Shown in pieces: positions 2,337-41,063 of a stretch of 64,000 nt of DNA. A program made the position numbers and the translations under genes. The notes under the pieces were generated by a model. That model ran no database searches. It saw only the letters and a list, made by a program, of their open reading frames with translations, and was not told the DNA's origin. Source of the DNA: Nocardioides agri (lineage in GTDB: Bacteria > Actinomycetota > Actinomycetes > Propionibacteriales > Nocardioidaceae); contig NZ_JACEIC010000001.1 of NCBI RefSeq assembly GCF_013778305.1, positions 62,001 through 126,000 on the forward strand, given 5' to 3'. Every line of letters starts with the position of its first letter. Positions within the stretch are counted from its first letter, which is position 1.

Positions 2337-2379
2337 AGGGACTGTCGCGATGTCGGCGGTGGTCTCTACGGTCCCGGCC

Positions 2380-3137: not shown

Positions 3138-3191
3138 GCCTCGGCTTGACCACCTTCCTTGATGCACAATGCTCGGGATCCGACGCCGTTT

Positions 3192-3202: not shown

Positions 3203-3223
3203 CACAACGCATATCCGGCCATT

Positions 3224-5756: not shown

Positions 5757-5902
5757 AAGACTCCTCGTCGTCGTACGAGCGCCCGGCCGCGGGCACGCGG
5801 CACAAGGCTAGGGCACGCCCCGGCGGCGACGCGGTGGGCCGGTACTAGCATGAGGCCTCCCCGCGCCGAGACCGACGCCGAGAGACGGAGACGACCGCCC
5901 GC

Positions 5903-7027: not shown

Positions 7028-7060
7028 GACGGCAGGCCTTGCTGGACTGGTGATCGGTAG

Positions 7061-7066
7061 TAGGTT
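7061..7066 (+). promoter_or_regulatory. Putative leaderless -10 box (TAGGTT)
   Basis: TAGGTT ends 7 bases before the ATG at 7074. This spacing places the transcription start at or next to the start codon. No Shine-Dalgarno sequence is present. Confidence 0.45.
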
Positions 7067-7073
7067 CTCGGGC

Positions 7074-7463: not shown

Positions 7464-7503
7464 GCTCGCGCACGACCGAAACGACCGACCGAGGAGGACG
7501 TGC

Positions 7504-10982: not shown

Positions 10983-10992
10983 GGAGTTCGCA

Positions 10993-12576: not shown

Positions 12577-12643
12577 ACCACCCCACTCGATTCTCGAGCT
12601 CCCCCGCTTCGCTCCTCCGCCCGACAATCGATCGGGGACCCCG

Positions 12644-26403: not shown

Positions 26404-29022
26404 GTGACGACCAGCAACTCGCCTGGCGTCAGCCCGGAGGACACCTACACTCAGGCCGTGCGGCTGTTGGAGCGCGACGCCGAGACGGGTGTCCTCCGGG
26501 CAGCGCTCGGGAGCGCCCGCGACGGCGAGGGCAGCATCGTGGTCATCGCCGGTGAGAGTGGTGCCGGCAAGTCGTCCCTGGTCGACGCGCTGGTCTCCGA
26601 GGCCGACGGCGTACGGGTGCTGCGAGCGCACTGCGACCCGCTCGACACGCCACGACCGCTCGGTCCCTTCCGCGACCTCCGGCTGGTCGACACCTCCGGT
26701 CGGGAGGACGCCTCCCGCGCGGAGCTCTGCGAGCGCGTGTACGACGCGGTCCGCGACGAGCCCGCCCTGCTGGTCGTCGAGGACCTGCACTGGGTCGACG
26801 CGGCGACGGTCGACGTGCTGCGGTTCCTGGCGCGGCGCGTGGAGTCGATGCCACTCCTGCTCGTGCTCACCTATCGCGACGGCGAGATCGACCCGCGGCA
26901 CTCCGTGCGGCCGCTCCTCGGCGACGTCGCCTCGCTCGACGGCATCGTCCAGCTCGCGCTGGCCCCCCTCTCCGTCCACGCGGTCCGCGACGTCGTCGCG
27001 GGCACCCACCTCGACGCCGAGCGCGTGCACGCGCTCACCGGCGGCAACCCGTTCTTCGTCACCGAGGTCGCCAAGGAGCCCGACCGGCCGCTCCCGAACT
27101 CGGTGCGTGACGCGGTCCTGGCGCACATCGCCGACGTGACCGATCACGACCTCGAGGTCCTCCAGCTGATCGCGGCCGCGCCCGACCGGCTCGACAACCG
27201 GGTGCTGCCGCACCTGGGCGTCGACCTGCCGACCCTGCGCCGCCTCCAGGACACCGCCCTGCTGACCCGGACCGCCGAGGGCCTGGTGTTCCGGCACGAG
27301 CTGGCGCGGCAGGCCGTCGAGAGCACGGTCCCGCCCGGTGGCGGACCGCGGCTGCACGCGCGGCTGCTCGAGGCGCTGCAGACCATCGAGCCGGCCGACC
27401 CCGCCGTGTTCACGCACCACGCGGTCGCCGCGCGCGACAACGCCCGCGCTACGGCGTACGCGTGCCAGGCCGCGGAGGAGGCGAGCACGGCGGGCTCGCA
27501 CAGCGAGGCGGCCGCGTTCTTCGAGATCGCGCTCGAGCACCTGGAGTCGCGCGACCCGGTGGAGCGCGCCGGGCTGCTGCTGCGGCTCGCCTACCAGCAG
27601 TACATGACCAGCCGCCTCGCCGAGGCGATCGCCAACACCCGCGCGACCTTCCGGTTGTGGGAGGAGGCCGGGGACGACGACGGCCTCGCCGCCGCACACG
27701 ACGCCGTCGCGCTGTACGAGTACTACAACGCCCACCGGGCCAAGGCCGAGCACCACGCGGACACCGCCGCTCGGATCGCGCAGGGCGCCGGCACCGCGTC
27801 GACCTATGGCGCCAGCCGCGCGACGCGGGGATTCATGGCCTACATGCGCAACGACCTCGACCAGGCCCGAGCACTGGCGACCGAGGCGCACGAGGTGGCG
27901 CGGCGCAACGAGCTCGCGCAGCTCGGCCTGCGCAGCGAGGTCGTCGCGAGTGTCGTCGACCTCGTCAGCGGCGACGAGTCCGCACGACCGGTGCTGCTGA
28001 CCCAGGTCGAGGCCGCCCGGGACCGCGGGTGGGACGAGCTGGCGTCGACGGTCTACTCCCAGGTCGCCAGCCTGGACGTCGAGCACGGCCGGCTCCGCGA
28101 CGCGGAGCAGGTCCTGCAGGTCTCGATCCCCTTCGCCGACGCCCGCGACATCCCGATCTGTCGGCACTGGCAGACCGGCGTCCGCGCGCGTCTCCAGCTG
28201 CTGCGGGGGCGGTGGGAGGCGGCGCTCGAGGACGCGGCCGCGGTCGTCGCGGACGACGGGATGCCGCTGGCGCTCGTGTGGCCGCGACTGGTCAGCGTGC
28301 TGGTGCCGCTGCGCCGGGGCGAGCACGCCGACCTCGGCGTCCTGGACGACGCGTGGTCGCTCGTCGAGCAGATCGACGAGCCGCTGCGCCGGCTGGCGGT
28401 GCTCGCGGCGCTCGCGGAGGCGGCGTGGATGACCGGCCGGCACGACCCTCGGGTGTCCGAGGGCGCCGTGGCTCACCTCGACGGCCTCGCGTCGCGCCCC
28501 GGGGCGGAGTGGGGCGCCGGGAACTGTGGCGCCTGGCTGCGTCGGATGGGGCTCCCGGTCCCGGACGTGGCCCGCAGCGCCACGCCGTACCGACTGGTCG
28601 ACGAGGGCAGGATCGCCGACGCCGCGGCGTACTGGGCGCGGGTCGGTGATCCGTTCGCCGAGGCGATGACCTGGACCGACTCGGCGGTCCCGGAGGACCG
28701 AGTGACGGGGATCCGGCTGCTGGACTCGATCGGCGCGATCGGGACCGCCGATCGGCTCCGCGTGGCGATGCGCCAGGAGGGGAGCGTGGTCGTGCCGCAG
28801 CGGCCCCGAGAGAGCACGCGCGCGAACCCCGCCGGGCTCACGAACCGGCAGCTCGAGGTCGCCCGACTGGTCGCCCGCGGGCTGTCCAACAGCGAGATCG
28901 CCGCGCAGCTCTTCATCTCACCCAAGACCGCCGACCATCACGTCTCGGCCATCCTGACGAAGCTCGGCGTGCCCAGCCGCCGCGCGGTCGTGGTCAACGC
29001 GGAGCAGCTCGGCCTGACGTGA
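26404..29022 (+). CDS. LuxR-type ATPase regulator (LAL-like), 872 aa
   Basis: A large regulator: AAA ATPase domain with Walker A GESGAGKSSL and Walker B LLVVEDLHWVD, a middle of helical TPR-like repeats (about residues 330-790), and a C-terminal LuxR HTH (TNRQLEVARLVARGLSNSEI, KTADHHVSAIL). Such proteins activate transcription in response to small ligands, often of metabolic operons; the inducer here is unknown. I use GTG 26404; GTG 26458 (VRLLERDAETGVL) fits the family start equally well. Its last 105 bases overlap the convergent SemiSWEET-like gene. Confidence 0.85.
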   Translation: MTTSNSPGVSPEDTYTQAVRLLERDAETGVLRAALGSARDGEGSIVVIAGESGAGKSSLVDALVSEADGVRVLRAHCDPLDTPRPLGPFRDLRLVDTSGREDASRAELCERVYDAVRDEPALLVVEDLHWVDAATVDVLRFLARRVESMPLLLVLTYRDGEIDPRHSVRPLLGDVASLDGIVQLALAPLSVHAVRDVVAGTHLDAERVHALTGGNPFFVTEVAKEPDRPLPNSVRDAVLAHIADVTDHDLEVLQLIAAAPDRLDNRVLPHLGVDLPTLRRLQDTALLTRTAEGLVFRHELARQAVESTVPPGGGPRLHARLLEALQTIEPADPAVFTHHAVAARDNARATAYACQAAEEASTAGSHSEAAAFFEIALEHLESRDPVERAGLLLRLAYQQYMTSRLAEAIANTRATFRLWEEAGDDDGLAAAHDAVALYEYYNAHRAKAEHHADTAARIAQGAGTASTYGASRATRGFMAYMRNDLDQARALATEAHEVARRNELAQLGLRSEVVASVVDLVSGDESARPVLLTQVEAARDRGWDELASTVYSQVASLDVEHGRLRDAEQVLQVSIPFADARDIPICRHWQTGVRARLQLLRGRWEAALEDAAAVVADDGMPLALVWPRLVSVLVPLRRGEHADLGVLDDAWSLVEQIDEPLRRLAVLAALAEAAWMTGRHDPRVSEGAVAHLDGLASRPGAEWGAGNCGAWLRRMGLPVPDVARSATPYRLVDEGRIADAAAYWARVGDPFAEAMTWTDSAVPEDRVTGIRLLDSIGAIGTADRLRVAMRQEGSVVVPQRPRESTRANPAGLTNRQLEVARLVARGLSNSEIAAQLFISPKTADHHVSAILTKLGVPSRRAVVVNAEQLGLT

Positions 29023-29581: not shown

Positions 29582-30166
29582 ATGGCCGACAGCACCGGTC
29601 AGAAGAGCCTGGCCGTCCCGCTCACGGCGTTCGCCGCGGGTGCGGTGGTCGCCGTGCTGCTCGGCGTCTTCGGGAAGGCGCACGACCCCACGCTCGACGG
29701 CACCACCTCCCTCGGCTTCGACACCGTCATCGGGATGAAGGTCGTGTTGTCGGTCGGGATCGGCGTCCTGGTCGTCGTCCAGCTGTTCAGCGCGTTGTGG
29801 CTCTACGGCAAGCTGCCGGGCCGGCCCCCGCGGTGGCTCGGCACCGCCCACCGCGCCTCCGGCACGATCGCCCTGCTGCTCGCCGTCTTCGTCGGCTACC
29901 ACTGCCTCTGGGCGCTCGGCCTCGAGACAGGCCACCTCCACAACGGCGAGAAGGTGCCGCTGCGCACCGTCGTCCACGGCGTCCTCGGCTGCGCCGTCTT
30001 CGGCGCCGTCATCGTCAAGGTCGTCGCCGTCCGCTCCCGCCGCGCGCCCGGCTGGTTCCTGCAGGTCGCCGGCGGCCTGCTGTTCACGCTGCTGGTCGTC
30101 GTCGTGCTCACCTCGGCCGGGTGGTACCTCTCCGAGAAGGGGTGGCCGGACTCCGGCGGCTATTGA
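29582..30166 (+). CDS. DUF6529-type membrane protein, 194 aa
   Basis: A 194-residue protein with about five hydrophobic helices (LTAFAAGAVVAVLLGVFG; GMKVVLSVGIGVLVVVQLF; ASGTIALLLAVFVGYHCLW; VLGCAVFGAVIVKVVAV; LLFTLLVVVVLTSAGWYL). Conserved His residues (H in YHCLW, GHLHN, VHGVLG) would suit heme binding as in cytochrome b561/DUF420-like proteins, but this is inference. ATG 29582 fits the start of TM1; CATGCT lies 6 bases upstream as a weak -10. It is the last chromosomal gene before attL of the rnpB element. Confidence 0.75.
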   Translation: MADSTGQKSLAVPLTAFAAGAVVAVLLGVFGKAHDPTLDGTTSLGFDTVIGMKVVLSVGIGVLVVVQLFSALWLYGKLPGRPPRWLGTAHRASGTIALLLAVFVGYHCLWALGLETGHLHNGEKVPLRTVVHGVLGCAVFGAVIVKVVAVRSRRAPGWFLQVAGGLLFTLLVVVVLTSAGWYLSEKGWPDSGGY

Positions 30167-30180
30167 GCCGGTGGGTGCGA

Positions 30181-30202
30181 ATGGGCTGGCCTGTAGGCCG
30201 GG
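30181..30202. repeat. attL: 22-base copy of the rnpB 3' end
   Basis: The sequence starting ATGGGCTGGCCTGTAGGC is identical over 22 bases to 40663-40684. Beyond it, this copy continues GAACGTCC whereas the rnpB copy continues TTCTGTAC, so the identity ends exactly here. It marks the left junction, with chromosome to the left. Confidence 0.85.
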
Positions 30203-30228
30203 AACGTCCCATCCTGAGAGAGAACTCG

Positions 30229-30241
30229 CCTCTGACCTGCG
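30229..30241 (-). other. Putative integrase arm site, left end
   Basis: On the minus strand it reads CGCAGGTCAGAGG, identical over 13 bases to two copies at the right end (40618-40630, 40638-40650) but in opposite orientation. It lies 27 bases inside attL. Mirror placement near both junctions is what integrase arm sites show. Confidence 0.6.
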
Positions 30242-30272
30242 GGTATTGCGTGGCGGTGATGCGCCCGCCGCG

Positions 30273-30299
30273 CCCGTGTGCACACTTTGTGCACACGGG
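30273..30299. repeat. Palindrome with TGTGCACA motifs, left end
   Basis: Perfect 11-base inverted arms CCCGTGTGCAC / GTGCACACGGG with loop ACTTT, containing TGTGCACA (30277-30284) and TTGTGCACA (30287-30295). The same motif recurs at 40528-40559. It lies just downstream of the integrase stop; lacking a T run it is less likely a terminator than a protein-binding site (integrase, excisionase or repressor). Confidence 0.5.
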
Positions 30300-30307
30300 C
30301 CAGGTCG

Positions 30308-31420
30308 TCAGGCCGACAGATGCCCGATCGCGGCCTCGGTGGCGCTGACTGAGCGTTCCTCGTCGTTGGGCCACAAGTGGGCGTAGGTCCGCAGGGTCTC
30401 GGCGACGTCGGCGTGGCCGAGCCGGTCGGCGACTGCCCGAACCGACCGCCCGTCGGCGATCAGGAGCGACGCGTGGAAGTGCCGGAGATCGTGCCAGCCG
30501 CTGCGCGCCGGTAGCCCGAGGTCCGCGGCGACCCGCTGCCAGACACCACCGGCTGCTGACCGTTCGATCGGACCGCCGACCCGCGAGCTGAAGATGAGCC
30601 CTTCGGGTCCCGTGCCGTAGGTCTCCAGGTGCTCCACCAAGACCTTGATCGTGGAGACCCCGATGGTGACCAGCCGATCCGCACGCGGAGTCTTCGGCGG
30701 CCCGAACTGTGGCACGCGTTCGCGGGTCCTGATGAGCTGACGGTCAACCGTGATCGTCACCGTCTCGGGCATCCTCAGGCCGCGCGGGAAGAGCGCCGGG
30801 CTGATCCGGTCCAGGGTCAGGCCACGCAGTTCGCCGGAGCGCATGCCCGTGGCGGCGCCGACTATCGCCATCGCCCGGTAGCGCTCGGGCAGCGCGGCCA
30901 CGATTGCTTCAAGCTGTTCGATCGTCAGCGGCGAGACCTTCTTGTCGACCACCTCCGGCAGGTTGATCCTCACGCACGGCGTGCGAGCGATGTGCTGGTC
31001 CATCACGGCCGAGTTCAGGATGGTGGCGACCAGGCTGTAGATCAGCCGGACCGTCGAGGGCGCCAAGGTCTTCGACGCCGTCGTCACCACCGTCTGTATG
31101 TCGGTGCGCCGCAGGGTGCCGATCTGGCGGCCACCGATCACGGGGTAGACGTGCAGGCGCAGCCGGCTCTCGATGTGGTCGGCGGTGCCGTCGCGATGGT
31201 GGAGCTGCGCGGCCCGCCACTTCTCGGCGTACGCCCTGAAGGTCACCTTCGACGCGCTGGGGTCGACGTAGTCCCCGCGCACCAGTGCCGCGACCTGCTC
31301 GTCCAGCCAGTTCTGCGCCTCCTTACGGAGCTTGAACCGCTTGGCGACCTGCCGACCGTCGCCGTCGCGGAATCGAACCTGGTACTTGCCGTCGGCGAGT
31401 TTCTTGATCGTGCCGGCCAT
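30308..31420 (-). CDS. int: Tyrosine-recombinase integrase, 370 aa
   Basis: The N-terminus (residues 1-60) is an arm-binding-type domain (MAGTIKKLADGKYQVRFRDG), followed by a SAM-like core-binding domain and the catalytic domain with R194 (TGMRSGELRGL), H310-x2-R313 (WHDLRHFHASLL), H336 (RLGHADV) and nucleophile Y346 (RTYAHLW). All catalytic residues are present, so it is likely active. It sits 105 bases from attL and its ATG overlaps the stop of the XRE gene. It would recombine attP with the rnpB 3' end. Confidence 0.93.
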   Translation of the reverse strand: MAGTIKKLADGKYQVRFRDGDGRQVAKRFKLRKEAQNWLDEQVAALVRGDYVDPSASKVTFRAYAEKWRAAQLHHRDGTADHIESRLRLHVYPVIGGRQIGTLRRTDIQTVVTTASKTLAPSTVRLIYSLVATILNSAVMDQHIARTPCVRINLPEVVDKKVSPLTIEQLEAIVAALPERYRAMAIVGAATGMRSGELRGLTLDRISPALFPRGLRMPETVTITVDRQLIRTRERVPQFGPPKTPRADRLVTIGVSTIKVLVEHLETYGTGPEGLIFSSRVGGPIERSAAGGVWQRVAADLGLPARSGWHDLRHFHASLLIADGRSVRAVADRLGHADVAETLRTYAHLWPNDEERSVSATEAAIGHLSA

Positions 31421-31908
31421 TACCGCTTCCTTCCGAGTCCGGTGAGCAGCGAGGCGACGGCTCCGACCTCCGCGAGCTGCCGGTCGATGCTCACGATGAA
31501 CGCCCGCTCCGCCGGCGTCTGGCGTTTCGCGTCCTTCACTTCCCGCTGCCACACCCGGTAGGCGTCGGCGAAGACTGACGCCTCGATCGACAGCGTCCGC
31601 AGCTCGGTCGTCACGTTGAACGCCGCCTGGCGAATCTCGGATCGAATCCCAGACCGGGGGGACACCAGATCGTCCAGCAGAACCCCGAACACCGCGGCGA
31701 AGGCGCTTGCTTCCATAAGCCGGACAGCTCGGTCCCCGCGTTCGGTCTTCGCGACCTGCGACTGGTTCATCTTGACGCCGTGCCGGGCCAGTTGCTGGAC
31801 GAGTTCGCGCTGGCTCCATCCCTTCGCCTCGCGGAGCGTCTTCACCGCTTGGCCAAGGTGTCGTTCGGCGTCGTGGGCCGGCCATTGCCCGATCGGGTCA
31901 GTCTCCAT
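31420..31908 (-). CDS. XRE-family regulator, candidate element repressor, 162 aa
   Basis: The HTH lies at about residues 18-70 (LGQAVKTLREAKGWSQRELV, then MNQSQVAKTERGDRAVRL), followed by a helical C-terminal domain of about 90 residues, probably for oligomerisation or inducer contact. It is divergent from the AlpA-like/primase operon over 90 bases and coupled to the integrase (stop TAA overlaps the integrase ATG). This is where PICI satellites place their master repressor (Stl) and prophages their CI. No peptidase motif is seen, so induction may need an antirepressor (inference). Confidence 0.8.
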   Translation of the reverse strand: METDPIGQWPAHDAERHLGQAVKTLREAKGWSQRELVQQLARHGVKMNQSQVAKTERGDRAVRLMEASAFAAVFGVLLDDLVSPRSGIRSEIRQAAFNVTTELRTLSIEASVFADAYRVWQREVKDAKRQTPAERAFIVSIDRQLAEVGAVASLLTGLGRKR

Positions 31909-31998
31909 GGGAATACATGATGCAGCGGCTAGAGAATCAGGTCAAGCAGTAGCACCCTAGTCCCGTCGGGCATCAACAACGATTCTCCCTGGAGGCTG
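31909..31998. promoter_or_regulatory. Divergent control region of the rnpB element
   Basis: This 90-base region separates the XRE/integrase operon from the AlpA/primase operon. It contains an inverted pair GAGAATC (31932-31938) and GATTCTC (31981-31987) that could bind the XRE dimer, and ends in a strong SD (GGAGG, 31991-31995) for the AlpA-like gene. Promoter boxes cannot be assigned with confidence. Confidence 0.4.
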
Positions 31999-32208
31999 AT
32001 GATGGAGCGACTCGTCACAATCGCCGATCTGGCGGGGGACAAGGGCGGCAGCACACCAGTCCCCGAGGGCACCTGGCGCTACTGGCGCACGAAGGGGATC
32101 GGTCCGCCATCGGTTCGTATCGGTCGCCGCGTCTTCTACCGCGCCATCGACGTTGAGCGGTGGCTCGAAGACCAGTTCGCCGATGCCGAGCGCGACCGTC
32201 CTAGTTAA
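31999..32208 (+). CDS. AlpA/excisionase-like HTH protein, 69 aa
   Basis: A 69-residue MerR-like/HTH_17 protein: PEGTWRYWRTKGIGPPSVRI then GRRVFYRAIDVERWLEDQ, the standard pattern of AlpA and excisionase proteins. In satellites and prophages such proteins activate excision or early genes. It is the first gene rightward of the divergent control region. Two consecutive ATGs (31999 and 32002) follow the SD; either may be used. Excision versus activation cannot be distinguished. Confidence 0.82.
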   Translation: MMERLVTIADLAGDKGGSTPVPEGTWRYWRTKGIGPPSVRIGRRVFYRAIDVERWLEDQFADAERDRPS

Positions 32209-32268
32209 GGCAGCCGAGCACCGGAAGGGCTCGACCGACCGTCACCACAACACGAGAGGAAGAGGAAG

Positions 32269-32610
32269 ATGGCAGTCCAACGAAGCCTCTGGGATGACCC
32301 GCGGGTCAAGCCGAAGGGCGCACGGTTCGCCAAGTTCAACGACATCGGGGACGAGCACGAGGGCGTCATCGCCGAGGTCACGATCCAGCTGTTCGACGAA
32401 GGCCGGGACACGGAGAAGGCGGTCCCCAAGCTGATCTTCGAGGACGGGACCGAGGTCACCTGCTCGGCCAGCAACCTGCACCGGATGATGTACGAGCAGC
32501 GTCCCGAGGTCGGTGACCACATCCGCATCAGGTATGTCGGTGACGATGATGCCGACTACAACCGGAAGCTGTTCGACGTCGACATCGTCCGCGCCGACCC
32601 GTCGTTCTGA
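32269..32610 (+). CDS. Hypothetical early protein, 113 aa (possible OB fold)
   Basis: A soluble beta-rich protein: RFAKFNDIGDEHEGVIAEVT, KLIFEDGTEVTCSASN, DHIRIRYVGDDDADYNRK and FDVDIVR, an alternation of strands and acidic turns that would fit an OB-fold. Its location between AlpA-like and primase genes fits a replication accessory such as an ssDNA-binding protein, but this is a guess and no family is recognised. The SD GAGGAAGAGG precedes ATG 32269. The primase gene starts 8 bases after its stop. Confidence 0.65.
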   Translation: MAVQRSLWDDPRVKPKGARFAKFNDIGDEHEGVIAEVTIQLFDEGRDTEKAVPKLIFEDGTEVTCSASNLHRMMYEQRPEVGDHIRIRYVGDDDADYNRKLFDVDIVRADPSF

Positions 32611-32618
32611 GGCCCACG

Positions 32619-34673
32619 GTGACCGCGTCCGAGCCCACCGACACCACCACGCGGCCGGGGGTTGTCCTCGAGGCCGCCGCCATGCTCGCCGACGCCGGGT
32701 TCCACGTCTTCCCGGTCGAGGGCAAGGAACCCCGCGTCCGGTGGGGGAGCGCAGCCACCCGCGACGCCGAGCAGCTCCTCGCGTGGTGGCGTCGGTGGCC
32801 GGATGCCGGCGTAGCGGTCGACTGCGGCAGGTCCGGCGTCGTGGTCGTGGACCTCGACGTCAAGGACGGAGTCGACGGGGTGACGGCATGGAAGGAGTTG
32901 GCCGACGGGAGAGCGCCGGCCACCTTCTGCGCCGTCACCCCGTCGGGCGGCCGACACCTCTACTACCGCGATTCAGCCCGGTCGTACCGGAACAGCGCGT
33001 CGCAGGTAGCGCCCGGCGTCGACGTCCGCGGCGTCGGCGGGTACGTCGTCGCACCACCGTCCCCCGGATACGCGTGGCACGCCGAGATGCCGCTGTCCGT
33101 CGATGACCTCCCGGCCCTTCCTGACGGCTTGCTTCCCATCTCGACCGGGACCAACGCCGGGCACTGGCGGCGACTCGACCTGGACCGCCTCGACCATCGG
33201 GACCGTGCCGCGCTTGCCGAGCTCCTGCGGCTCGGCGGGCACTCCGCGTATCAGGCCGACGGGTACATCGCGATCACTAGGCCGGGGAGGATGGCCGGGT
33301 TGTCGGCCTCAATCGGGCACATCGGTCCCGGGGTGGCGAAGGTCTTCACGCCGCACTGGCCGCCGCTGACGGCAGGCGGCAGATACTCGGCCGACGACCT
33401 GGTCCTTCTTTCTCGTCCAGATGTCGCCGCAACCGTGCAACCGGCGCTGGCCGCCGAGCACCGCATCCTGGACAAGTTCGGCGAAGCCGTCGCCGGACAA
33501 GGTCTCGTCGGCGAAGACGCCCTCGCCAAGCTCCTGTACCTCACGGTCACCAGCAGGCTCCTCGACCGGCAGGTCTCGGCCGGCGTCAAGGGCCACTCCG
33601 CGTCCGGGAAGTCCTGGACCGTCGAGGTGGTGCTCCGCTTCTTCCCTCGCGACGCGTACCTGACCTTCACCGCGATGTCGGAGAAGGCGCTCATCCACTC
33701 CGACGAGGAGTACGCCCACCGGACCATCGTCATCTACGAGGTGGTCGCCCTGCGCGAAGGCATTGAGGATGACCTGACCTCCTACCTGATCCGGTCCCTC
33801 CTGTCCGAGGGCCGCATCGAGTACCCGGTGACCGTCCGCGACCCCAAGGGCGGGTTCACCACCAAGACGATCGTCAAGGAAGGCCCCACCAACCTGCTCT
33901 TCACCACAACCAAGACGCGGGTCCACGCCGAGAACGAAACCCGCGTCTTGTCCCTGAACACCGACGACTCCACCGAGCAGACCGCTCGGGTCTTCCTCGA
34001 GCTCGCCAACGACGACGCGATCGCCCCGCACGGCGACCTCGACCCGTGGATCGAGCTGCAGCGGTGGCTCGAGAACCAAGACAACCGGGTCGTCATCCCA
34101 TACGCCCGCGACCTCGTCGCACGCATCCCCGCCGTCGCGGTCCGGCTGCGCCGCGACGTCGGAGCCCTGTTGTCGCTGATCCGAACCCACGCACTACTCC
34201 ACCAAGCGACCCGCCGCCGCGACCACGACGGCCGACTCGTCGCCACCCTCGACGACTACGGGACCGTCCGGGACCTGGTCGCCGACATCCTCTCCGAAGG
34301 CGTCGGCGCAACCGTCTCGGCCACCGTCCGCGGCACCGTCGGCGCGGTCGCGACGATCACCACCGGCAGCCGCGAGGCCAGCGCCCTGGACGTCGCCCGC
34401 CAACTCGGCGTGGACAAGTCCAACGCCGGCCGCCGACTCCGCGCCGCATCTGACGGCGGGTACGTCCGCAACCGCGAGGACAAGCACGGCAAGCCGGGCC
34501 GCTGGGTCCTCGGCGACCCGCTCCCGGAGGCCGTGGCGCTCCTCCCGACGGTCGAGGAGCTGCGGTCCGGTTGCGCGGTTGCGCCGGTTCCTGGGGCAGA
34601 AAGAGACCCGCGCCCAGCGAGCGTCGGCCCTCCGACGGAGACCAGGCGCGCAGGCGAGGGGAGGCCGGCATGA
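32619..34673 (+). CDS. Primase-polymerase / helicase replication protein, 684 aa
   Basis: The N-terminal domain is a bifunctional primase-polymerase (prim-pol): D78-x-D80 (VVVDLDVKDG) metal site and SGGRHLYY with H113. The middle carries a P-loop (GHSASGKSW, about residues 325-333) of a helicase-like ATPase. A C-terminal winged-helix (VARQLGVDKSNAGRRLRAAS) may bind the origin. This is the pri-rep type protein of satellites and plasmids, able to drive autonomous replication after excision. GTG 32619 is the start. The stop overlaps the next ATG by 4 bases. Confidence 0.85.
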   Translation: MTASEPTDTTTRPGVVLEAAAMLADAGFHVFPVEGKEPRVRWGSAATRDAEQLLAWWRRWPDAGVAVDCGRSGVVVVDLDVKDGVDGVTAWKELADGRAPATFCAVTPSGGRHLYYRDSARSYRNSASQVAPGVDVRGVGGYVVAPPSPGYAWHAEMPLSVDDLPALPDGLLPISTGTNAGHWRRLDLDRLDHRDRAALAELLRLGGHSAYQADGYIAITRPGRMAGLSASIGHIGPGVAKVFTPHWPPLTAGGRYSADDLVLLSRPDVAATVQPALAAEHRILDKFGEAVAGQGLVGEDALAKLLYLTVTSRLLDRQVSAGVKGHSASGKSWTVEVVLRFFPRDAYLTFTAMSEKALIHSDEEYAHRTIVIYEVVALREGIEDDLTSYLIRSLLSEGRIEYPVTVRDPKGGFTTKTIVKEGPTNLLFTTTKTRVHAENETRVLSLNTDDSTEQTARVFLELANDDAIAPHGDLDPWIELQRWLENQDNRVVIPYARDLVARIPAVAVRLRRDVGALLSLIRTHALLHQATRRRDHDGRLVATLDDYGTVRDLVADILSEGVGATVSATVRGTVGAVATITTGSREASALDVARQLGVDKSNAGRRLRAASDGGYVRNREDKHGKPGRWVLGDPLPEAVALLPTVEELRSGCAVAPVPGAERDPRPASVGPPTETRRAGEGRPA

Positions 34674-34909
34674 CCACGCCCACCGGCATCAGCCGGCGGC
34701 TGCTCACCCTGCACCAGCTCGCCCGTCGAGCCGCAGACACCGCCGAGCTCGCCTACGCCGCCCACGACCGGGACCAGCAGGAGGACGCACTGCCGTACCT
34801 GGCCGACATCGCCGAGGAACAGACCCGTGAGCTTTACCTCCTCGCTCAGCACCTCCACAAGCTCGGTCTCCTCGACCACGCCGCCGGCTGGTCATCAGGG
34901 TCCGCATGA
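34670..34909 (+). CDS. Small helical protein, 79 aa
   Basis: A 79-residue all-helical protein (RRLLTLHQLARRAADTAELA, then QQEDALPYLADIAEEQTREL) without signal or membrane segment. Its ATG overlaps the primase stop and its stop region overlaps the HNH-terminase start (34906), so three genes are translationally coupled. Position just before terminase makes a small terminase or regulator of packaging conceivable, but the sequence shows no HTH. The function is unknown. Confidence 0.65.
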   Translation: MTTPTGISRRLLTLHQLARRAADTAELAYAAHDRDQQEDALPYLADIAEEQTRELYLLAQHLHKLGLLDHAAGWSSGSA

Positions 34910-36774
34910 CCATCGCCGGAAGTCCGCAACCATGGGGAGGCTCGCACTCCCGACGCATCCGCGCCTACTGGCAGACGCGGCTCCCCATGCCCTGCGGAGT
35001 CTGCGGCATCACCATCCGACCCGGGGACCTGTGGAACGTCGGCCACATCGAGTCCCGAGCCGCGAGGCCCGACCTCGTCTACGTCATCGCCAACACCCGA
35101 CCTGAGTGCCGACGTTGCTCCGACGCGGGCGGTCAACAAGGCGTCCGGGACAAGGCTCGCGCCGACACCCTGCGGCAGTACGGCCTCCCACCCGAGACGA
35201 CGACACCGCCGCGATCCGGAGGGCGCCGACCGGATTCTTGGGGGCCACCGTCTACGACGGCAGTCCCCGCAGTCTCGCGTCTCTCCGACCAGGAGACCGA
35301 AGGTCGTCGCATCCCTTGGGATGTGCTCGTCGACAGGCCCTGGTTGGTCGGGTTCGCGGAGGTTCCGGCGGAGTCGTCGGTGCCGCTGCTCATGTCCCCG
35401 CCGCATCCGTCGGCGACCGGCAGTTATGGGGAGCTGGCGGCGAAGTGGGCGGAGGCGGAGCTCGGTCTTCGGTTGCGGTGGTGGCAGCGGTTGGCGCTCC
35501 GCCGGCTGCTCGAGCACGACGCCGAGGGGTCGCTGTGCTGGACGACCGCGCTCGTCTCGACGCCGAGGCGTGCTGGGAAGTCGACGCTGCTGATGGTGCT
35601 CGCGCTGTGGCGGATTAGCCACGGCGACCTGTTCGGCGAGCCGGTGCAGTCGGCGATTCACTGCGCAGCGGACAAGCAGGCGGTCGCCGAGGTGATGCGC
35701 AAGAGTTTCGGGTGGGCGCAGACGAACGGGCACGCCGTGCGTCGCGCCAACGGACAGGAGGCGGTCGAGCTGACGACCGGCGGCCGCTGGCTGCTCCGGT
35801 CGACGTCCGCGGTCTACGGCTACGAGGTCGACCTCGGCATCGTGGACGAGGCATGGGCGGTCGACCCCGAGACGGTCGACGACGGACTCGAGCCCGGGCT
35901 CGCGCACCGACCGTCCCCACAACTGTTGGTCACCTCCACCGCACACCGGCGTGCGACGTCGCTGATGCGCCGCCGGCTGGCGGCCGCGACCGCGGGCATG
36001 GGTGAGGACACGTCCACGTTGGTGCTGCTGTGGGGCGCGCCCGCGGATGCGCCGCTCGGGGAGGTCGGGACCTGGCGCGCCGCGAGCCCGTTCTGGACCG
36101 TCCAGGTCGAGCGCCTCATCTCGGACCGGTGGGAGCGCGTGCAGCGCGGCGAAGCGGACCCGGCGGCCGACGACCCAGACCCTGTCGAGGGGTTCGCGGC
36201 GCAGTACCTGAACAGGTGGCCGCCGACCGACGCGGTCCCGGTGCGGCGCGAGGAGCCCGCGGTGCCGGCCGAGCTGTGGACCGGCGCGCTGACCGAGGAC
36301 GGAACCCCGTCCGGGCGACCGGCGGTCGCCGCGCTCGAATCGTGGTTCGCCGTCGGTCCGGCGCTGGCGGTTGCATGGGTCGACGAGGCCGGGCGAGCCG
36401 TGGTGTCCGCCCGCCAAGCCGACACACTCGCCGACGCCGCCGACCTCGTACGGACCGCAGGTGCTCCAGTGCTGCTCGTCGGGAAGTCGCTGACCGACGA
36501 CGCCGCCCTGACGACTCTCGCCGGGTCGGTCACCATCGAGCCGACGGGAGGGACGACCTGGAACGTCGTCTCGGAGCTGCGGCGGTACCTCGACGAGGGA
36601 CGCCTCCGGCACGACGGCTCCCCGCTGCTGGCCGACCAGGTCGCGGGGCTCGTCGTGGTCGACGCCGCAACTGGTCCACGACTACGACCCGGAGCGGTCG
36701 TCTCCGCGGTCAAGGCCGCCGTCTGGGCCGCCCGCCGAGCACTCGCGGCCACCGAGCCGCCGCGCATCTTCTAG
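34906..36774 (+). CDS. HNH endonuclease fused to terminase large subunit, 622 aa
   Basis: Residues 20-75 form an HNH nuclease zinc motif: C30-x2-C33 (CGVCG), H47 (VGHIESR), N63 and C68-x2-C71 (NTRPECRRC). After a Pro-rich linker, residues about 165-620 form a terminase large subunit with Walker A STPRRAGKST (about 218-227), Walker B LGIVDEAW (D314, E315) and a C-terminal RNase H-like nuclease domain (AVAWVDEAGRAVV). Terminases pump DNA into proheads, and phages usually encode HNH as a separate neighbour required for cleavage. The fusion reads through without a stop or frameshift. Confidence 0.8.
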   Translation: MTIAGSPQPWGGSHSRRIRAYWQTRLPMPCGVCGITIRPGDLWNVGHIESRAARPDLVYVIANTRPECRRCSDAGGQQGVRDKARADTLRQYGLPPETTTPPRSGGRRPDSWGPPSTTAVPAVSRLSDQETEGRRIPWDVLVDRPWLVGFAEVPAESSVPLLMSPPHPSATGSYGELAAKWAEAELGLRLRWWQRLALRRLLEHDAEGSLCWTTALVSTPRRAGKSTLLMVLALWRISHGDLFGEPVQSAIHCAADKQAVAEVMRKSFGWAQTNGHAVRRANGQEAVELTTGGRWLLRSTSAVYGYEVDLGIVDEAWAVDPETVDDGLEPGLAHRPSPQLLVTSTAHRRATSLMRRRLAAATAGMGEDTSTLVLLWGAPADAPLGEVGTWRAASPFWTVQVERLISDRWERVQRGEADPAADDPDPVEGFAAQYLNRWPPTDAVPVRREEPAVPAELWTGALTEDGTPSGRPAVAALESWFAVGPALAVAWVDEAGRAVVSARQADTLADAADLVRTAGAPVLLVGKSLTDDAALTTLAGSVTIEPTGGTTWNVVSELRRYLDEGRLRHDGSPLLADQVAGLVVVDAATGPRLRPGAVVSAVKAAVWAARRALAATEPPRIF

Positions 36775-36799
36775 TTCCAACACACAAAGGAGAACCACC

Positions 36800-37624
36800 A
36801 TGAGCATGACGGGACTGCCCCCCGCCCCCGGCTTCATGGCCGCACCCGCGGTCCCGCTGCGACCCGCCAACCTCCCCGACGCCGCGTACGTCGCCGCCAT
36901 CGCCGGCGCCGACCTCGCCGAACCCCTGACCCGGATCAACGCCGCCTACGCGGCGGCTTCGACTGCCGTCGTCGCGCTCGACGCCGCACGCCCCGGCGGC
37001 AACCGGTTCACCGCGGAGCTCGCCGCGGACGTCGCCGACCGGGTCGCGGGCAGGACTGCTAAGACCCTCCGCGTCGACCGGCTCGTCGAAGGCGACCGCG
37101 AACGGTGGGCAGAGACGGCGATCGCCTGCAAGGCCGCGCCGGCCATCCAGCGCGCCGAGCTCGCGAACCTCGACAAGACCGCCATCGGCAAGGCTGCCCG
37201 GAAGGCAGCGGACCAGGCCGCCGCCGAATGGGCTGCCGCCGCTGCGTCGGGGTGGATCGAACGCGCCGACCACCTCGTCGCATGGACCCACCGACGCGCC
37301 GGCGAGGAGGCACTCGGAACGTACGGAGCGGCGTCGCGACTCTGGGAATGGTGCACCGGCGCGCCGGGACGCACGCCGCCCACTGTCCGGCTTCAGATCC
37401 CCGACGTAGACGCCCTGCCGCCGATCCCCACCGCCCGCGGCCAATGGCTCGCCCTCGAACGCCTCTTGCGCCCGACCACCTGGCTCAACCTTCCAACCGA
37501 GGGCATTGTCTGGCCCGACGACGCCCCCGACATCGCCCAGGCGCTCCCCGAGACAGGGCGACAGTTCGCCGACCTCGCGAACCACGGATCGTGGCCGGTG
37601 GTCCCCGAACCGCAGGGAAGGTAG
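36800..37624 (+). CDS. Hypothetical Ala-rich protein, 274 aa
   Basis: A soluble Ala/Asp/Arg-rich protein, largely helical (LTRINAAYAAASTAVVALDA; IGKAARKAADQAAAEWAAAA) with Pro-rich ends (MTGLPPAPGFMAAPAVPLRP). It lies between terminase and the protease-like gene, the place where phages carry the portal, but it shows no portal pattern and is too short. It could be a packaging accessory, scaffold or unrelated cargo. SD AAAGGAG precedes ATG 36800. The family is unknown. Confidence 0.65.
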   Translation: MSMTGLPPAPGFMAAPAVPLRPANLPDAAYVAAIAGADLAEPLTRINAAYAAASTAVVALDAARPGGNRFTAELAADVADRVAGRTAKTLRVDRLVEGDRERWAETAIACKAAPAIQRAELANLDKTAIGKAARKAADQAAAEWAAAAASGWIERADHLVAWTHRRAGEEALGTYGAASRLWEWCTGAPGRTPPTVRLQIPDVDALPPIPTARGQWLALERLLRPTTWLNLPTEGIVWPDDAPDIAQALPETGRQFADLANHGSWPVVPEPQGR

Positions 37625-37633
37625 ACGATCAGG

Positions 37634-38050
37634 ATGCTGATGGGTGTCATCCCGCTCGGCGGGCACGTCGAGCTCCGAGGAGGGCGGCTGCTAGAGATCG
37701 TCCCCGAGACCCTCGAGGACTTCCTCGACGACGGTCCGAGCGGTACGACGCCTGTCCTCCTCGAACACGACCCGACCCGACCGCTCGGCTGGGTCACCAA
37801 CGTCCGCACCAAGCATCATCGGCTGCTGGTCTACGGCGACCTGGACACGGCCTACCCGTACGCGAAGGCCGCCGAGCGGCTCATCCGCTCGCGCACCATG
37901 TACGGCTTGTCGCCGATGGTGATGACGCAGAACGCCGACCGTCTGTACGCGCCGACCGGCGCGTGGGGGCGCGGACTCGTAGCGTCGGTCCCGGAGGTGT
38001 CCCTGGTCTGGCGGCCCCGAATCATTGGTGCGGCGTGGCACCTAGGCTGA
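37634..38050 (+). CDS. Prohead-protease-like protein (HK97/S78 type), 138 aa
   Basis: The pattern VLLEHDPTRPLGWVTNVR (H45), LLVYGDLD, a Ser in MYGLSPMVM (S93) and VPEVSLVWRP follows the His...Ser...EVSL order of HK97-type prohead proteases, which cut scaffold regions of the capsid during maturation. At 138 residues it stops soon after the EVSLV strand and is shorter than typical enzymes (about 180-220), so it may be truncated. No capsid gene follows; the restriction-methylation gene begins on the opposite strand 2 bases later. Confidence 0.65.
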   Translation: MLMGVIPLGGHVELRGGRLLEIVPETLEDFLDDGPSGTTPVLLEHDPTRPLGWVTNVRTKHHRLLVYGDLDTAYPYAKAAERLIRSRTMYGLSPMVMTQNADRLYAPTGAWGRGLVASVPEVSLVWRPRIIGAAWHLG

Positions 38051-38052
38051 TG

Positions 38053-40374
38053 TCACTTGAGCAGCCCGTAGTGCCAGAGCTTGGGGGCGATCACGTCGGC
38101 GTGGTACCGAGCCACAAGCGCCTTCAGCGTCTTCAGTTCGCCGTTGAGGATGGGGTAGTCGTAGACCGTGGTCGGCTTTCCGCCCACTACGACCCGCTTT
38201 GACGTGTTCAGATCTGCGGCGATCTGAAACGGGCCGTAGCTTCGGGTCGGCGTGTAGTTGGCAGTCTGCTTCGCCGCGTCCAGCACCTTCGCCCACTGCT
38301 TAAGCAGCGTTTCTTCCACGGCCGTCAGTGAGTAGTTGTCCAGGTCCTTCTGCGCCACGGTGTCGCCGTCAAAGCACAACTCGTTGCGGTAATCGCGGCC
38401 GTCCGAGCCCAGGAACGAACGGCACTTGTTGTGGTACGCCAGGCACGTATAGATCAGGCAGGACTTCAAGAAGTCGGGGTCGCTGGAGAAGTTGTCACCG
38501 TTGTCGGCGGAGCGGTTCACCACGCCACGAATCCAGAACCGCCCCTCGGACGGGTAGCGGCCCACGACGAAGAGCGGCAACTTCGTCTGGTAGTTGTCGC
38601 TGCGGAGCGGGAAACCGTTCGTGGCACTGAAGACGGACACTCGGGTGAGCACCGTTCGCAGGTCGGTGTTCTCGAAGCCGGCCGCGTCCGCGACCAGGTA
38701 GCCGATGATGTCCGGCCCCCACAACGCCGACTTCGCGTAGCGCTTGCGCGACGTTTCGACGCCGTTCGGCTCGCATACGATGCCGGGCTCGTCTGTCGGC
38801 AGAGACCGGGTGTCGTAGAGCGACGAGAGCAACTTGTGCGTCGTGCGGACGACGATGTTCCCAGGCCCGGGGTTCTCCTTGTGCGCCGCGCCCTTCACGA
38901 GAGCACCCGTCTTGCGGTTGATGTCGAAAGGCGCCAATGGGTAGCTGTTCCGGCGTCGCTTCGGGTCCTCGTTCGACCACAGGATCACGCTCACACCTGC
39001 GTCCTTGCGGGCGTGGAAATGGCGGCGATTGAAGAGGAACCCTCGGACGAAGGTCTTGTTCACGAGGCCCTGCGACTTGAAGTACTTGGTCGGCGAAAAG
39101 AGGACGTAGGAGTCCGTCGGCTGTCGCAGGTAGTAGCGGAATCCAGACCAGATGAAGAGGTTGGTCAGTTCCCGCAGGGCGCGGTTGTTGGCGTTCTTCG
39201 TCGACTTGCCCCACTCCGCTTCCATGCGCTTTCGCACCCAGGAGTCCTTCCAGCCGAAGGACTCGCGGCCCGCGAACTTCTGAGACTCCATTCCGGCGAC
39301 GTCCGCGTACGGCGGGTTCTCGAAGAGAATGATCGTGCACTCGGGGTTGTCGAGGTACTGCTGGATCACGTTCGGAACGCGGACGCCCTGCTTATTCAGT
39401 CCGCCCAGCACGAAGCGGTCTGACAGTGCATCTCCATTGAGAAGGAAGCCCCTCTTCGGGTCGCCGGCCTTAAAGGTCGGCGGGATGACGGCTCGCACCT
39501 GCTGGCCGAACTCCCGGGCCAGTTCCAAGTACTCGAACTCCTCGTATGTGTTCACGATGACGTGGGAGAGCTCGTCCTCCGTAAGGAAGCGCTGCAGGTT
39601 CCCGGTCCCGGCACAACGGTCGATGATCACGTAGTCGTTCCCTGCGGGAACGCGCCGGATGGCCTCGCGAAGCAGTTCGTGTGACTTCTTGACGTACGGC
39701 TCGGGGGTGTAGAACGCGCCCAGCTCGATCTTCTTCAACTTGTCGTTGAGCCGATCGAGGATGTAGCTGAACTCGGCGTACGAGTCGCCTGGGTAAGGGT
39801 GGATCAGGCCCTTGAACTGACGCGGGTCTTTCAACTCGCCGAGCGGTCCCTTGGCCGGGTCGTTGTTGAGGAACGCCGCTTTGTCGGAGCCTCGGACCTC
39901 GCGGTAGAAGCGTTCTGCCCACGCGACCACGCAGTCCTCGGTGATGCGGATCGGAATGAAGCACTCCTCCTTGAGGAGGTCGACGATCGCCTGCGCACCT
40001 GTGTCCAGGTAGTCCTTGATGACGACCGGCTTCCCCTTGGCCCGGAAGCCCTTGTTGTCCCTGCTGGCCGCCGTCGTGTACGGCTGATGAAGCTCCTCGA
40101 CGTAGTCGTTGGAGTCGAACTTGTAGACGGTCAGGGCGTTGAGGTCGACCAGGAGGATGTTCGCGGGGACGTTGTGGCCATTGATCCGCAGTCGCGACAG
40201 GTACTTGATGGCCTGGAACAACACTTGGTTGACGTCGGCGATCGAGGTCTTGAACTCCAGCAGGTTCCCGTTATGGACGCCGTCGGTGTGGAGAACGATC
40301 GCCGTGGCAGGGATCTTGAACTCCTTGAAGAAGTCCGCCTGTCCCTCGGCTTCGTTGGCGTACTCCTGGATCAT
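38053..40374 (-). CDS. Type IIG-like restriction-methyltransferase, 773 aa
   Basis: A single-chain R-M enzyme. The N-terminus has D31-x8-E40-x-K42 (LHTDGVHNGNLLEFK), a PD-(D/E)xK-type nuclease site. The central N6-adenine methylase has GAFYTPEPYVKKS (219-231), SAM motif DRCAGTGN (252-259) and catalytic NPPY (353-356). The C-terminal 300 residues are probably target recognition. Its base composition is visibly lower in GC than all neighbours, with many A/T third positions, indicating separate acquisition. It would cut unmodified DNA such as phage genomes. It stands alone at the rnpB end of the element; a methylase-only defence protein is the alternative. Confidence 0.8.
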   Translation of the reverse strand: MIQEYANEAEGQADFFKEFKIPATAIVLHTDGVHNGNLLEFKTSIADVNQVLFQAIKYLSRLRINGHNVPANILLVDLNALTVYKFDSNDYVEELHQPYTTAASRDNKGFRAKGKPVVIKDYLDTGAQAIVDLLKEECFIPIRITEDCVVAWAERFYREVRGSDKAAFLNNDPAKGPLGELKDPRQFKGLIHPYPGDSYAEFSYILDRLNDKLKKIELGAFYTPEPYVKKSHELLREAIRRVPAGNDYVIIDRCAGTGNLQRFLTEDELSHVIVNTYEEFEYLELAREFGQQVRAVIPPTFKAGDPKRGFLLNGDALSDRFVLGGLNKQGVRVPNVIQQYLDNPECTIILFENPPYADVAGMESQKFAGRESFGWKDSWVRKRMEAEWGKSTKNANNRALRELTNLFIWSGFRYYLRQPTDSYVLFSPTKYFKSQGLVNKTFVRGFLFNRRHFHARKDAGVSVILWSNEDPKRRRNSYPLAPFDINRKTGALVKGAAHKENPGPGNIVVRTTHKLLSSLYDTRSLPTDEPGIVCEPNGVETSRKRYAKSALWGPDIIGYLVADAAGFENTDLRTVLTRVSVFSATNGFPLRSDNYQTKLPLFVVGRYPSEGRFWIRGVVNRSADNGDNFSSDPDFLKSCLIYTCLAYHNKCRSFLGSDGRDYRNELCFDGDTVAQKDLDNYSLTAVEETLLKQWAKVLDAAKQTANYTPTRSYGPFQIAADLNTSKRVVVGGKPTTVYDYPILNGELKTLKALVARYHADVIAPKLWHYGLLK

Positions 40375-40527
40375 TCGCTGCCCTTCGACGTCGTACCCGG
40401 CTGACGCCCGATCTTGTCACCTAGAGCCTGTTGCGTCCTGTCATTGACACCCGCGCCGGACACACAACCGTCACGGATCGCGGCTGCCGAGCGATCACCT
40501 GCGGATGGACCACGACGGCACGGGACG

Positions 40528-40559
40528 TGTGCACATCTTGTGCACACGATTTGTGCACA
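40528..40559. repeat. TGTGCACA cluster, right end
   Basis: TGTGCACA (40528-40535), TTGTGCACA (40538-40546) and TTGTGCACA (40551-40559; starts 13 bases apart) match the motifs at 30277-30295 near the left end. Recurrence at both element ends suggests binding by integrase, an excisionase or the XRE protein. Confidence 0.5.
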
Positions 40560-40617
40560 AGACACTCAATAGCCCCCATCTGCCGTCATCATCACTCGGT
40601 CGTCGAGGCGGCATTAC

Positions 40618-40650
40618 CGCAGGTCAGAGGGGGTTTTCGCAGGTCAGAGG
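40618..40650 (+). other. Two tandem putative integrase arm sites, right end
   Basis: CGCAGGTCAGAGG occurs at 40618-40630 and 40638-40650, a 20-base period (about two helical turns). The second ends 12 bases before attR. An inverted copy lies near attL. This matches the arm-site arrangement of tyrosine integrase attachment regions. Confidence 0.6.
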
Positions 40651-40660
40651 GCCGAGGGGC

Positions 40661-41063
40661 GGATGGGCTGGCCTGTAGGCCGGGTTCTGTACGCCGAAGC
40701 GTGGCGACCATCCATCTACGACGACCGTTGCCGGCCGCCTCCAGCGGTCTACCCGCGCACTCGGGCGGGCCGCCCTCAGTCGTGCGCGCGTCCGGGGCCC
40801 GAGGGCTCCGGACTTCTTGACCTTGCTCCAGGTGGGGTTTGCCGAGCCGGCCGGGTCGCCCCGGTCGCTGGTGGTCCCTTACACCACCGTTTCACCCTTA
40901 CCTGCCCTGCCGCCGAAGCAGCCGGGCAGGCGGTCTGTTCTCTGTGGCACTTTCCCGCGGGTCACCCCGGGTGGGCGTTACCCACCACCCTGCCCTGTGG
41001 AGCCCGGACCTTCCTCGGCACCTCCCTCTCGGGCGGTGACGCGGTCGCCCGGCCAGCCCATCC
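40661..41063 (-). ncRNA. rnpB: RNase P RNA (rnpB), bacterial type A
   Basis: On the minus strand the gene shows the conserved RNase P elements: P1 5' strand GGATGGGCTGGCC (near 41063), GAGGAAGGTCCGGGCTCC then ACAGGGCAGGGTG (around 41020-40985), ACAGAGAACAGACCGCC, ACGGTGGT... in the centre, and the 3' end ACAGAACCCGGCCTACAGG followed by the P1 partner GGCCAGCCCATCC. The 13-base P1 stem pairs perfectly. It is the catalytic RNA that removes 5' leaders of pre-tRNAs. Ends are set by P1 and may be off by a few bases. It is the integration target of the neighbouring element. Confidence 0.95.
40663..40684. repeat. attR: 22-base 3' end of rnpB
   Basis: This is the second copy of the 22-base direct repeat; on the minus strand it is the end of the RNase P RNA, including the 3' strand of the P1 stem. 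Because rnpB to its right is full length, the element restored the RNA's 3' end on integration. Confidence 0.85.

Follow-up and report, generated by a model that had tools for sequence, protein, structure and literature searches.

The question raised by the 64-kb stretch of the Nocardioides agri genome studied here (the window: G000:C1:62001-126000 of a 4.79-Mb genome in 5 contigs) is why the 3' end of its RNase P RNA gene, rnpB, occurs twice, with an integrase gene between the two copies. RNase P RNA processes tRNAs and is essential in nearly all bacteria. The answer we hold with high confidence is that 30181-40684 is a 10.5-kb integrative element, placed there by a tyrosine integrase that targets the rnpB 3' end. 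An exact 22-bp direct repeat, ATGGGCTGGCCTGTAGGCCGGG, bounds the element. One copy lies within the 3' end of rnpB (the core of the right attachment site, attR; 40663-40684, plus strand), and the other, a copy of that 3' end, lies at the far end (attL; 30181-30202, plus strand), where it marks the displaced chromosomal end. The gene (RNase P RNA class A; 40660-41060, minus strand) is transcribed leftwards with its 3' end abutting the element, and it matches the Rfam model RF00010 over its full length (positions 1-367 of 367, 269.9 bits), which makes the RNA gene complete despite the insertion. The repeat thus links the 3' end of an RNA gene to the far end of the element, as looked for in an element placed by an integrase. 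Both the repeat and the insertion at rnpB had been proposed in the initial annotation; the repeat proved exact and matched none of 100 shuffles, and the insertion is borne out by the complete rnpB, by the exact repeat and by the recurrence of the arrangement at rnpB elsewhere.

With up to 3 mismatches allowed, ATGGGCTGGCCTGTAGGCCGGG has two sites in the 64 kb, both at the element ends (0/100 shuffles match), and across the whole genome a degenerate 20-base form of the core, searched with 1 mismatch, falls in the same two places and no others. Taken together with a few bases on its flanks, rnpB has a 5' strand, GCGGATGGGCTGGCC, that is complementary to its 3' strand, GGCCAGCCCATCCGC, a pairing read from the sequence only, and the displaced rnpB end at attL reads CCCATTCGC. 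The core contains the inverted repeat GGCC-TGTA-GGCC, a plausible seat for two integrase monomers. In the explanation we favour, the bacterial site, attB, is the last ~25 nt of rnpB, the site on the element, attP, carries a copy of the rnpB end, and recombination would take place within the 22-bp core. The host would then receive an equivalent rnpB 3' end from the element, and the old end would be left behind as attL; since attP would bring a replacement end, the ribozyme gene would stay complete. In the same scheme the AlpA-type protein of the element would direct excision, and its XRE protein would keep the element silent. The integrase belongs to actinobacterial lineages for which rnpB is the target.

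Unoccupied sites were found in two other Nocardioides genomes (L090 in G066:C13 and L098 in G038), each with rnpB and a single core. After the core, both carry a small open reading frame, a membrane protein gene and a LuxR gene with 81-83% amino acid identity to the window's 26440-29022, and the flank in the window is arranged likewise, except for an additional DUF6529 gene (29582-30166) adjoining attL. The search for an empty rnpB site in relatives, suggested together with the initial annotation, therefore succeeded at two loci, with the same neighbours save that one gene. The DUF6529 gene, by eye first b561-like and then assigned by Pfam, was tried as a marker of the exact empty site and rejected, being located elsewhere in other genomes: it is present in 15 of 209 genomes, the window genome counted, and in 10 of the 14 others (both positions listed) at least 40 kb separate it from the core, or it sits on a different contig. 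The genome of L090 is not element-free, having a second rnpB elsewhere with an integrase of the rnpB type. Its two rnpB genes, L077/L345 (C9:449364-449750) and L090 (C13:146422-146809), are both complete, at 301 and 272 bits, and the former adjoins the rnpB-type integrase, a Vsr endonuclease gene and a C5 methyltransferase gene, as if the entire gene had travelled. PMC9569102 mentions additional copies of rnpB in certain mycobacteria.

How far the arrangement recurs was assessed by scanning one genome per species with an alignment of 13 rnpB-linked integrases and taking the best 80 of 400 relatives, with proximity to rnpB called from blastn stretches over 100 bp. In 57 of these 80 best loci rnpB lies no more than 5.5 kb from the integrase, and in 49 no more than 0.7 kb. 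Among the remaining 23, some on very short contigs, the rnpB-end core occurs within 1.5 kb in 7 and neither rnpB nor core in 16. The tRNA nearest to any of the 80 loci (ARAGORN) is 3158 bp away. Fifty of the 57 rnpB-linked loci are spread over nine named actinobacterial orders: Propionibacteriales (14), Micrococcales (11), Geodermatophilales (10), Mycobacteriales (7), Pseudonocardiales (3), Acidimicrobiales (2), and Nitriliruptorales, Jatrophihabitantales and Kineosporiales with one each. The other seven are four Actinomycetota without an order, two metagenome-assembled genomes labelled Dormibacterota, whose contigs may be misbinned, and one Bacillus sp. (UNVERIFIED). A complete rnpB was confirmed by covariance match at L135, L151, L155, L174, L188 and L189, and the same search found no rnpB in the L198 locus stretch. 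Exact repeats of 22-38 bp are present in 24 of 25 loci chosen for having two cores, two of which (L071 and L175) are one element, and L186 has none. Loci of Mycobacterium in the wide sense with the rnpB arrangement are L144, L150, L181, L184, L187 and L188. A c-di-AMP riboswitch (ydaO) lies near rnpB in the Geodermatophilus locus L135 (11763-11912).

Within the genus, the best relatives of the window integrase in 98 Nocardioides genomes are 37-46% identical to it. The core, with up to 4 mismatches, occurs in the 1.5-kb flanks of 9 of the 30 loci L003-L032 (L003, L004, L005, L008, L010, L011, L012, L014 and L016), and in L007, L009 and L025 the integrase is 3-5 kb from a core at rnpB. No core was found in the flanks of L006, L013 and L015, at 39-42% identity, so that integrase similarity and the link to rnpB coincide just in part; the less similar L017-L024 and L026-L032 have no core there either, and four of them have a tRNA within 1 kb. 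A survey of the site itself, with the 20-base core pattern and 1 mismatch, revealed a core pair on the same contig and strand, with one copy at rnpB, in 21 of 215 Nocardioides genomes (G000, G012, G018, G025, G026, G039, G060, G063, G072, G075, G096, G097, G128, G130, G133, G147, G172, G188, G193, G195 and G208, with G193 counted through its inferred identity with G346, which has equal coordinates). The spacing of the pairs is 0.9-207 kb, and 15 of the 21 have an integrase of the window type between the cores, with a split frame in G075 and G208. Such an integrase was not found between the cores of the other six (G025, G072, G097, G128, G133 and G172), which we take as remnants or other elements. 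In some further genomes, such as G086 and G119, two cores are on different contigs.

Several of these sites deserve mention for themselves. L083, L084, L085 and L366 are core-flanked stretches of 0.9-2.4 kb at rnpB without a window-type integrase and are possible scars of former elements. L070, in G097, is a core-flanked region of 16.5 kb at rnpB, likewise without such an integrase, with defence-like cargo: a C5 cytosine methylase (3416-4804) and a NERD/UvrD helicase protein (16178-17836). In G148 two cores, 50 kb from each other and accompanied by a split integrase (L081, L082 and L343), are not at rnpB, and the rnpB of that genome, at 688 kb, bears arm-like motifs of its own; a rearrangement or a tandem element is possible there.

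The integrases themselves fall into two deep lineages that mostly read the rnpB site in opposite orientation, as judged from two quick trees made without bootstrap. In a tree of 110 integrases, one set of 69 rows holds 62 linked to rnpB, 3 to the core and 4 to neither (Shimodaira-Hasegawa-like approximate likelihood ratio support 81), and the window integrase stands in another set, together with L121, L122, L152, L176 and L198 (support 100). The rnpB label changes 11 times on this tree, compared with 35.2 times in shuffles, none of 500 being as low. For the window's relatives rnpB was sought with RF00010 in whole genomes. L121 and L176 share 55 and 29 exact bases, respectively, with the 3'-end region of their own rnpB on another contig, and for L122 and L198 the match to the 3' end of their own rnpB is in the core, with a single mismatch; we infer that the missing part of each of these four elements joins the integrase contig to the rnpB contig. 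L152 has no match to its own rnpB 3' end. The second tree, of 72 rows including viral contigs and phages, splits into 23 and 49 rows (support 99). On the window side all 10 rows that bear a core have it behind the integrase in one orientation, and 13 have no core in reach; the window's label on this side was set by hand, and the pairs TripleJ/Kukla and L176/L248 are nearly copies of one another. Across the split the orientation is reversed in 24 rows, the core precedes the integrase in 3, 21 have no core in reach, and one (L264) has its core in the window's orientation.

Phages and viral contigs carry the same signature. The Arthrobacter phages TripleJ and Kukla, which infect Arthrobacter globiformis, have integrases with about 40% identity to that of the window, and within 70 bp after the integrase they carry ACAGAACCCGGCGTATCGGTCAACCCATCC, 30 nt of an rnpB 3' end and their predicted attP. 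Among 50,697 phage records the full 30-mer is found in three, all TripleJ or Kukla, and in 394 genomes of the window's class it occurs once exactly and once with a mismatch, in each case terminating a complete rnpB. In 10 of 42 IMG/VR contigs (of 80 listed) a core, 2 mismatches at most being allowed, lies within 100 bp of the integrase, many IMG/VR integrase records ending at the integrase; the core-bearing contigs, among them L242, L248, L250 and L251, are 8-94 kb long. A gut phage contig, MT835553, was set aside, as it has a complete rnpB but no integrase match.

The ends of the element have further sites that resemble the arm-type sites of lambda-type integrases accompanied by sites of a second protein. 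A pattern search located GCAGGTCAGAGG, a putative integrase arm site, as a single inverted copy 26 bp inside attL (30229-30240, minus strand) and as two direct copies to the left of attR (40619-40630 and 40639-40650, plus strand). With at most 1 mismatch there are 3 copies in the 64 kb versus 0.68 expected, and at least 3 were obtained in 4 of 100 shuffles. TGTGCACANNTTGTGCACA, a candidate second arm type or a site for the excisionase or the repressor, lies 74 bp inside attL (30277-30295) and about 116 bp inside attR (40528-40546), the latter among the TGTGCACA-type sites of 40526-40561; 0 of 100 shuffles reproduced this. In L250, a viral contig of 52 kb, GCAGGTCAGAGG adjoins its own rnpB-like core and the reverse CTGACCTGC lies on the opposite side.

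Several observations weigh against the view that the element was placed by an integrase dedicated to rnpB. The 16 loci with neither rnpB nor core stand among the best 80, and the query was itself built from rnpB-linked integrases, so that the scan measures breadth and gives no unbiased rate. A subclade close to the rnpB integrases (L157, L159, L162, L183 and L006) has no core or rnpB nearby, and a Blastococcus/Geodermatophilus/Trujillonella group of integrases is without any rnpB link. The genomes of L090 and L098 lack the DUF6529 gene that sits just outside attL in the window, and with that gene placed elsewhere in other genomes no empty site that agrees flank for flank was found. Finally, excision to a circle and the recombination itself are predictions of this view. 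Of the expectation that related integrases would always be found at rnpB, then, the greater part held (57 of 80 within 5.5 kb) and the word 'always' did not, given the 16 loci and the two unlinked subclades; similarly, the suggestion of a mobile family specialised for rnpB holds for the integrase lineage, the carriers being of several kinds.

What the element carries was established by profile searches, which agree with the earlier labels integrase, XRE, AlpA-like, prim-pol and terminase. The tyrosine integrase (370 aa; 30308-31420, minus strand; PF00589 2.4e-18, phrog_1 1e-62) has R194, K243, H310, R313, H336 and Y346, which are invariant across the 13 rnpB-linked integrases (alignment A1) and which we take to be its catalytic residues. 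Next to it, the gene of an XRE-type repressor (31420-31908, minus strand; HTH_31 1e-7) is divergent from that of a 69-aa AlpA/excisionase-like helix-turn-helix (HTH) protein (31999-32208; HTH_17, phrog_66). On the plus strand the latter is followed by genes for a 113-aa protein (32269-32610; no Pfam match, weak phrog_1911), a 684-aa primase-polymerase (prim-pol) replication protein (32619-34673; PF09250 1.5e-33), a 79-aa protein (34670-34909; no match in Pfam or PHROGs), a 622-aa terminase large subunit (34906-36774; phrog_9 1.3e-31), a protein without a family match that we call p274 (36800-37624), and a stand-alone prohead-protease-like protein of 138 aa (37634-38050). The last had been called protease-like from the start, and a prohead protease profile supports this, if weakly (phrog_3244 3.4e-5; Peptidase_S78 just 0.32). 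The N-terminus of the terminase is probably an HNH-like stretch, an HNH phrog having matched on its homologue (61% identity) in L201, another element of this genome, which also shares p274 (60% identity). An AlphaFold structure of p274, modelled from two sequences, had a mean predicted local distance difference test score (pLDDT) of 42.1 and was unusable for a fold search.

The gene nearest to rnpB encodes a 773-aa protein (38053-40374, minus strand). It starts about 290 bp past the 3' end of rnpB and points the same way, which means that transcription continuing out of rnpB could express it. Over its kilobases the G+C content is 61-64%, versus 66-75% in the other kilobases shown. The protein is 37% identical over its full length to Limosilactobacillus plasmid proteins annotated as hypothetical, with no relevant match in Pfam, PHROGs, NCBIfam, PADLOC or PDB sequences. 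It contains NPPY, read by eye, a motif of the type found in N6-adenine methyltransferases. The earlier restriction-modification label drew on motifs read by eye and did not find a curated methyltransferase or nuclease family behind it; a single-chain restriction-modification enzyme is possibly what this protein is.

These genes raise the question of what kind of carrier the integrase serves here. Elements at rnpB are varied: in nine from outside Nocardioides, 60 proteins (a few integrases included) gave 4 Phage_capsid matches and others to tape-measure and small-terminase families, with a major head and a protease gene in L150 (Mycobacterium), a major head gene in L178 and tape-measure proteins in L155 and L168. 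Nine Nocardioidaceae elements, with 76 proteins, had 4 TrwC relaxases, 3 AbiEii and several HTH/excisionase proteins. The cargo thus points to carriers of several kinds: prophage-size, small and capsid-bearing, relaxase-bearing, and satellite-like. The window element has the integrase, the divergent repressor/AlpA pair and the primase/replicase of phage-inducible chromosomal islands (PICIs), and profile searches found no portal, capsid or tail gene in it, so that it is without the major capsid and portal genes of capsid-forming PICIs. The earlier description as PICI-type fits only in part: the element encodes a large terminase along with a protease-like protein, and where a PICI would have a small terminase or another packaging-redirection gene (TerS, Rpp), no small terminase was matched in Pfam or PHROGs, the 79-, 113- and 274-aa proteins being without an assigned family. 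We lean towards a phage satellite, which would replicate by its prim-pol and use its own terminase, p274 and protease-like protein to enter the capsids of a helper.

The main alternative on the phage side is a decayed prophage of a compact Nocardioides type, which lost portal, capsid and tail, kept its integrase at rnpB and has no satellite cycle. Terminase homologues of 40-45% identity do occur in 14 of 208 other Nocardioides genomes, and in 6 of 6 neighbourhoods (L202-L205, L207 and L212) further long genes follow the terminase, identified by profile as portal and major head/protease in the three tested (L202, L203 and L207); the corresponding position in the window is taken by p274 and the short gene for the protease-like protein. 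The trio of terminase, p274 and protease-like protein is confined to the window genome among the genomes and viral contigs searched, which speaks against a satellite type of wide distribution and lowers the satellite inference slightly: p274 has two copies in 294 family genomes, both in the window genome, plus three weak matches (2e-4 to 4e-4), and none in viral contigs, and 14 viral contigs with terminase relatives have no p274 or protease-like match. The satellite reading, moreover, is drawn from gene content. Against decay, however, stands L201 (G000:C2:507000-526900, about 1628-12971), a second satellite-like element that carries the same trio in open frames, 61, 60 and 75% identical to the window's, with a large serine integrase, a different replication gene (AAA/primase-like), a GmrSD-type protein and, again, nothing recognised as a portal, capsid or tail gene. 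This element interrupts a Mg-chelatase/ComM-like gene, with the ChlI N-terminal part on one side and the Mg_chelatase part on the other. The same three genes retained twice in one genome are hardly the work of random decay, and we consider a decayed prophage unlikely.

A mobilizable or defence island, using the rnpB site with borrowed phage genes and moving by conjugation or passive transduction, would be in keeping with the relaxases (4/76 proteins) and AbiEii (3/76) of other Nocardioidaceae elements and with the possible restriction-modification gene of lower G+C content. A Pfam scan of the window element, however, gave no relaxase match, and movement by way of phages would account for its terminase, protease-like protein and prim-pol; such an island is improbable. 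The rnpB link could also be questioned altogether, with the repeat as a piece of conserved RNA sequence duplicated by chance and the gene order a coincidence. Single-mismatch matches to the pattern do occur away from rnpB, and a reversed control pattern matched once in some genomes; yet with the repeat matched in 0 of 100 shuffles, the integrase recurring at 57 of 80 loci and the core pair present in 21 of 215 genomes of the genus, we give this explanation next to no credence.

The favoured interpretation, an integrase-placed element at rnpB that may be a phage satellite, has parallels in known systems. Tyrosine-integrase elements are known in tRNA and tmRNA genes, as reportedly described by Williams in 2002, a work cited in PMC10111431. 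Like them, the window element has an integrase, a predicted attP with a replacement RNA-gene 3' end, and an RNA gene that is complete after insertion; unlike them, its target is rnpB, with the core over the RNase P RNA 3' end and two lineages of mostly opposite polarity. It resembles PICIs in its size of about 10 kb, its integrase, its divergent repressor/AlpA pair, its prim-pol and the lack of any capsid or tail gene found, but differs in encoding a terminase large subunit and a protease-like protein, with no small terminase found. As described in PMC10654092 and PMC10690885, capsid-forming and Mycobacterium candidate PICIs are also small actinobacterial elements with phage packaging genes; L150, another rnpB element, carries major head and protease genes as capsid-forming PICIs do, whereas the window element is without capsid or portal. 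The three PICIs with a tyrosine integrase (Int-Y) drawn in PMC10654092 sit at tRNA genes. The Streptomyces satellites MulchRoom and MiniFlayer are likewise actinobacterial with packaging genes of their own, but according to PMC10690885 they have capsid and portal and no recognised primase, the reverse of the window element with its prim-pol and no capsid or portal. TripleJ and Kukla share with it a 40% identical integrase, the rnpB 3'-end sequence beside the integrase and the polarity of the window lineage; they differ as phages of 45.5 and 46.7 kb with their own gene sets, and where they integrate is a prediction.

The literature searched yielded no paper that describes rnpB as an attachment site, although an entry in the TIGER survey (Nucleic Acids Research 2020) is still possible. 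By term search, neither rnpB nor RNase P appears in the main text of PMC8092301 (18 Mycobacterium abscessus attB sites) or PMC10654092 (29 sites), nor in that of PMC10023795 and PMC10111431; the text of PMC10690885 has no RNase P, the term rnpB not having been tried. In the passages of PMC2705793, PMC4256840, PMC5462765, PMC2824730, PMC6582537, PMC2516327, PMC8776855, PMC2386152 and PMC3541175 that name it, rnpB is just a marker gene, promoter source or listed gene, and these were set aside.

We put forward tentatively, and with some doubt that both halves will hold together, that the rnpB 3' end is a general class of actinobacterial attachment site, used by two integrase lineages of opposite polarity and by phages, satellites and mobilizable elements, and that the window element and the one in the comM-like gene represent a new kind of satellite, which would take over the capsids of a helper with nothing more than a terminase, p274 and a free prohead protease of its own. 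Integrases that use the rnpB 3' end put the entry point of a mobile element on a core ribozyme, and extend the RNA-gene rule past tRNA and tmRNA. For annotation there is a hint in the absence of rnpB from the Mycobacterium prophage papers PMC8092301 and PMC10654092, as Mycobacterium loci with the arrangement do exist. The attP/attB pair at rnpB would be usable for integration vectors in many actinobacteria, and the use of a single site in two polarities offers a natural way to test how integrases acquire and retain their target.

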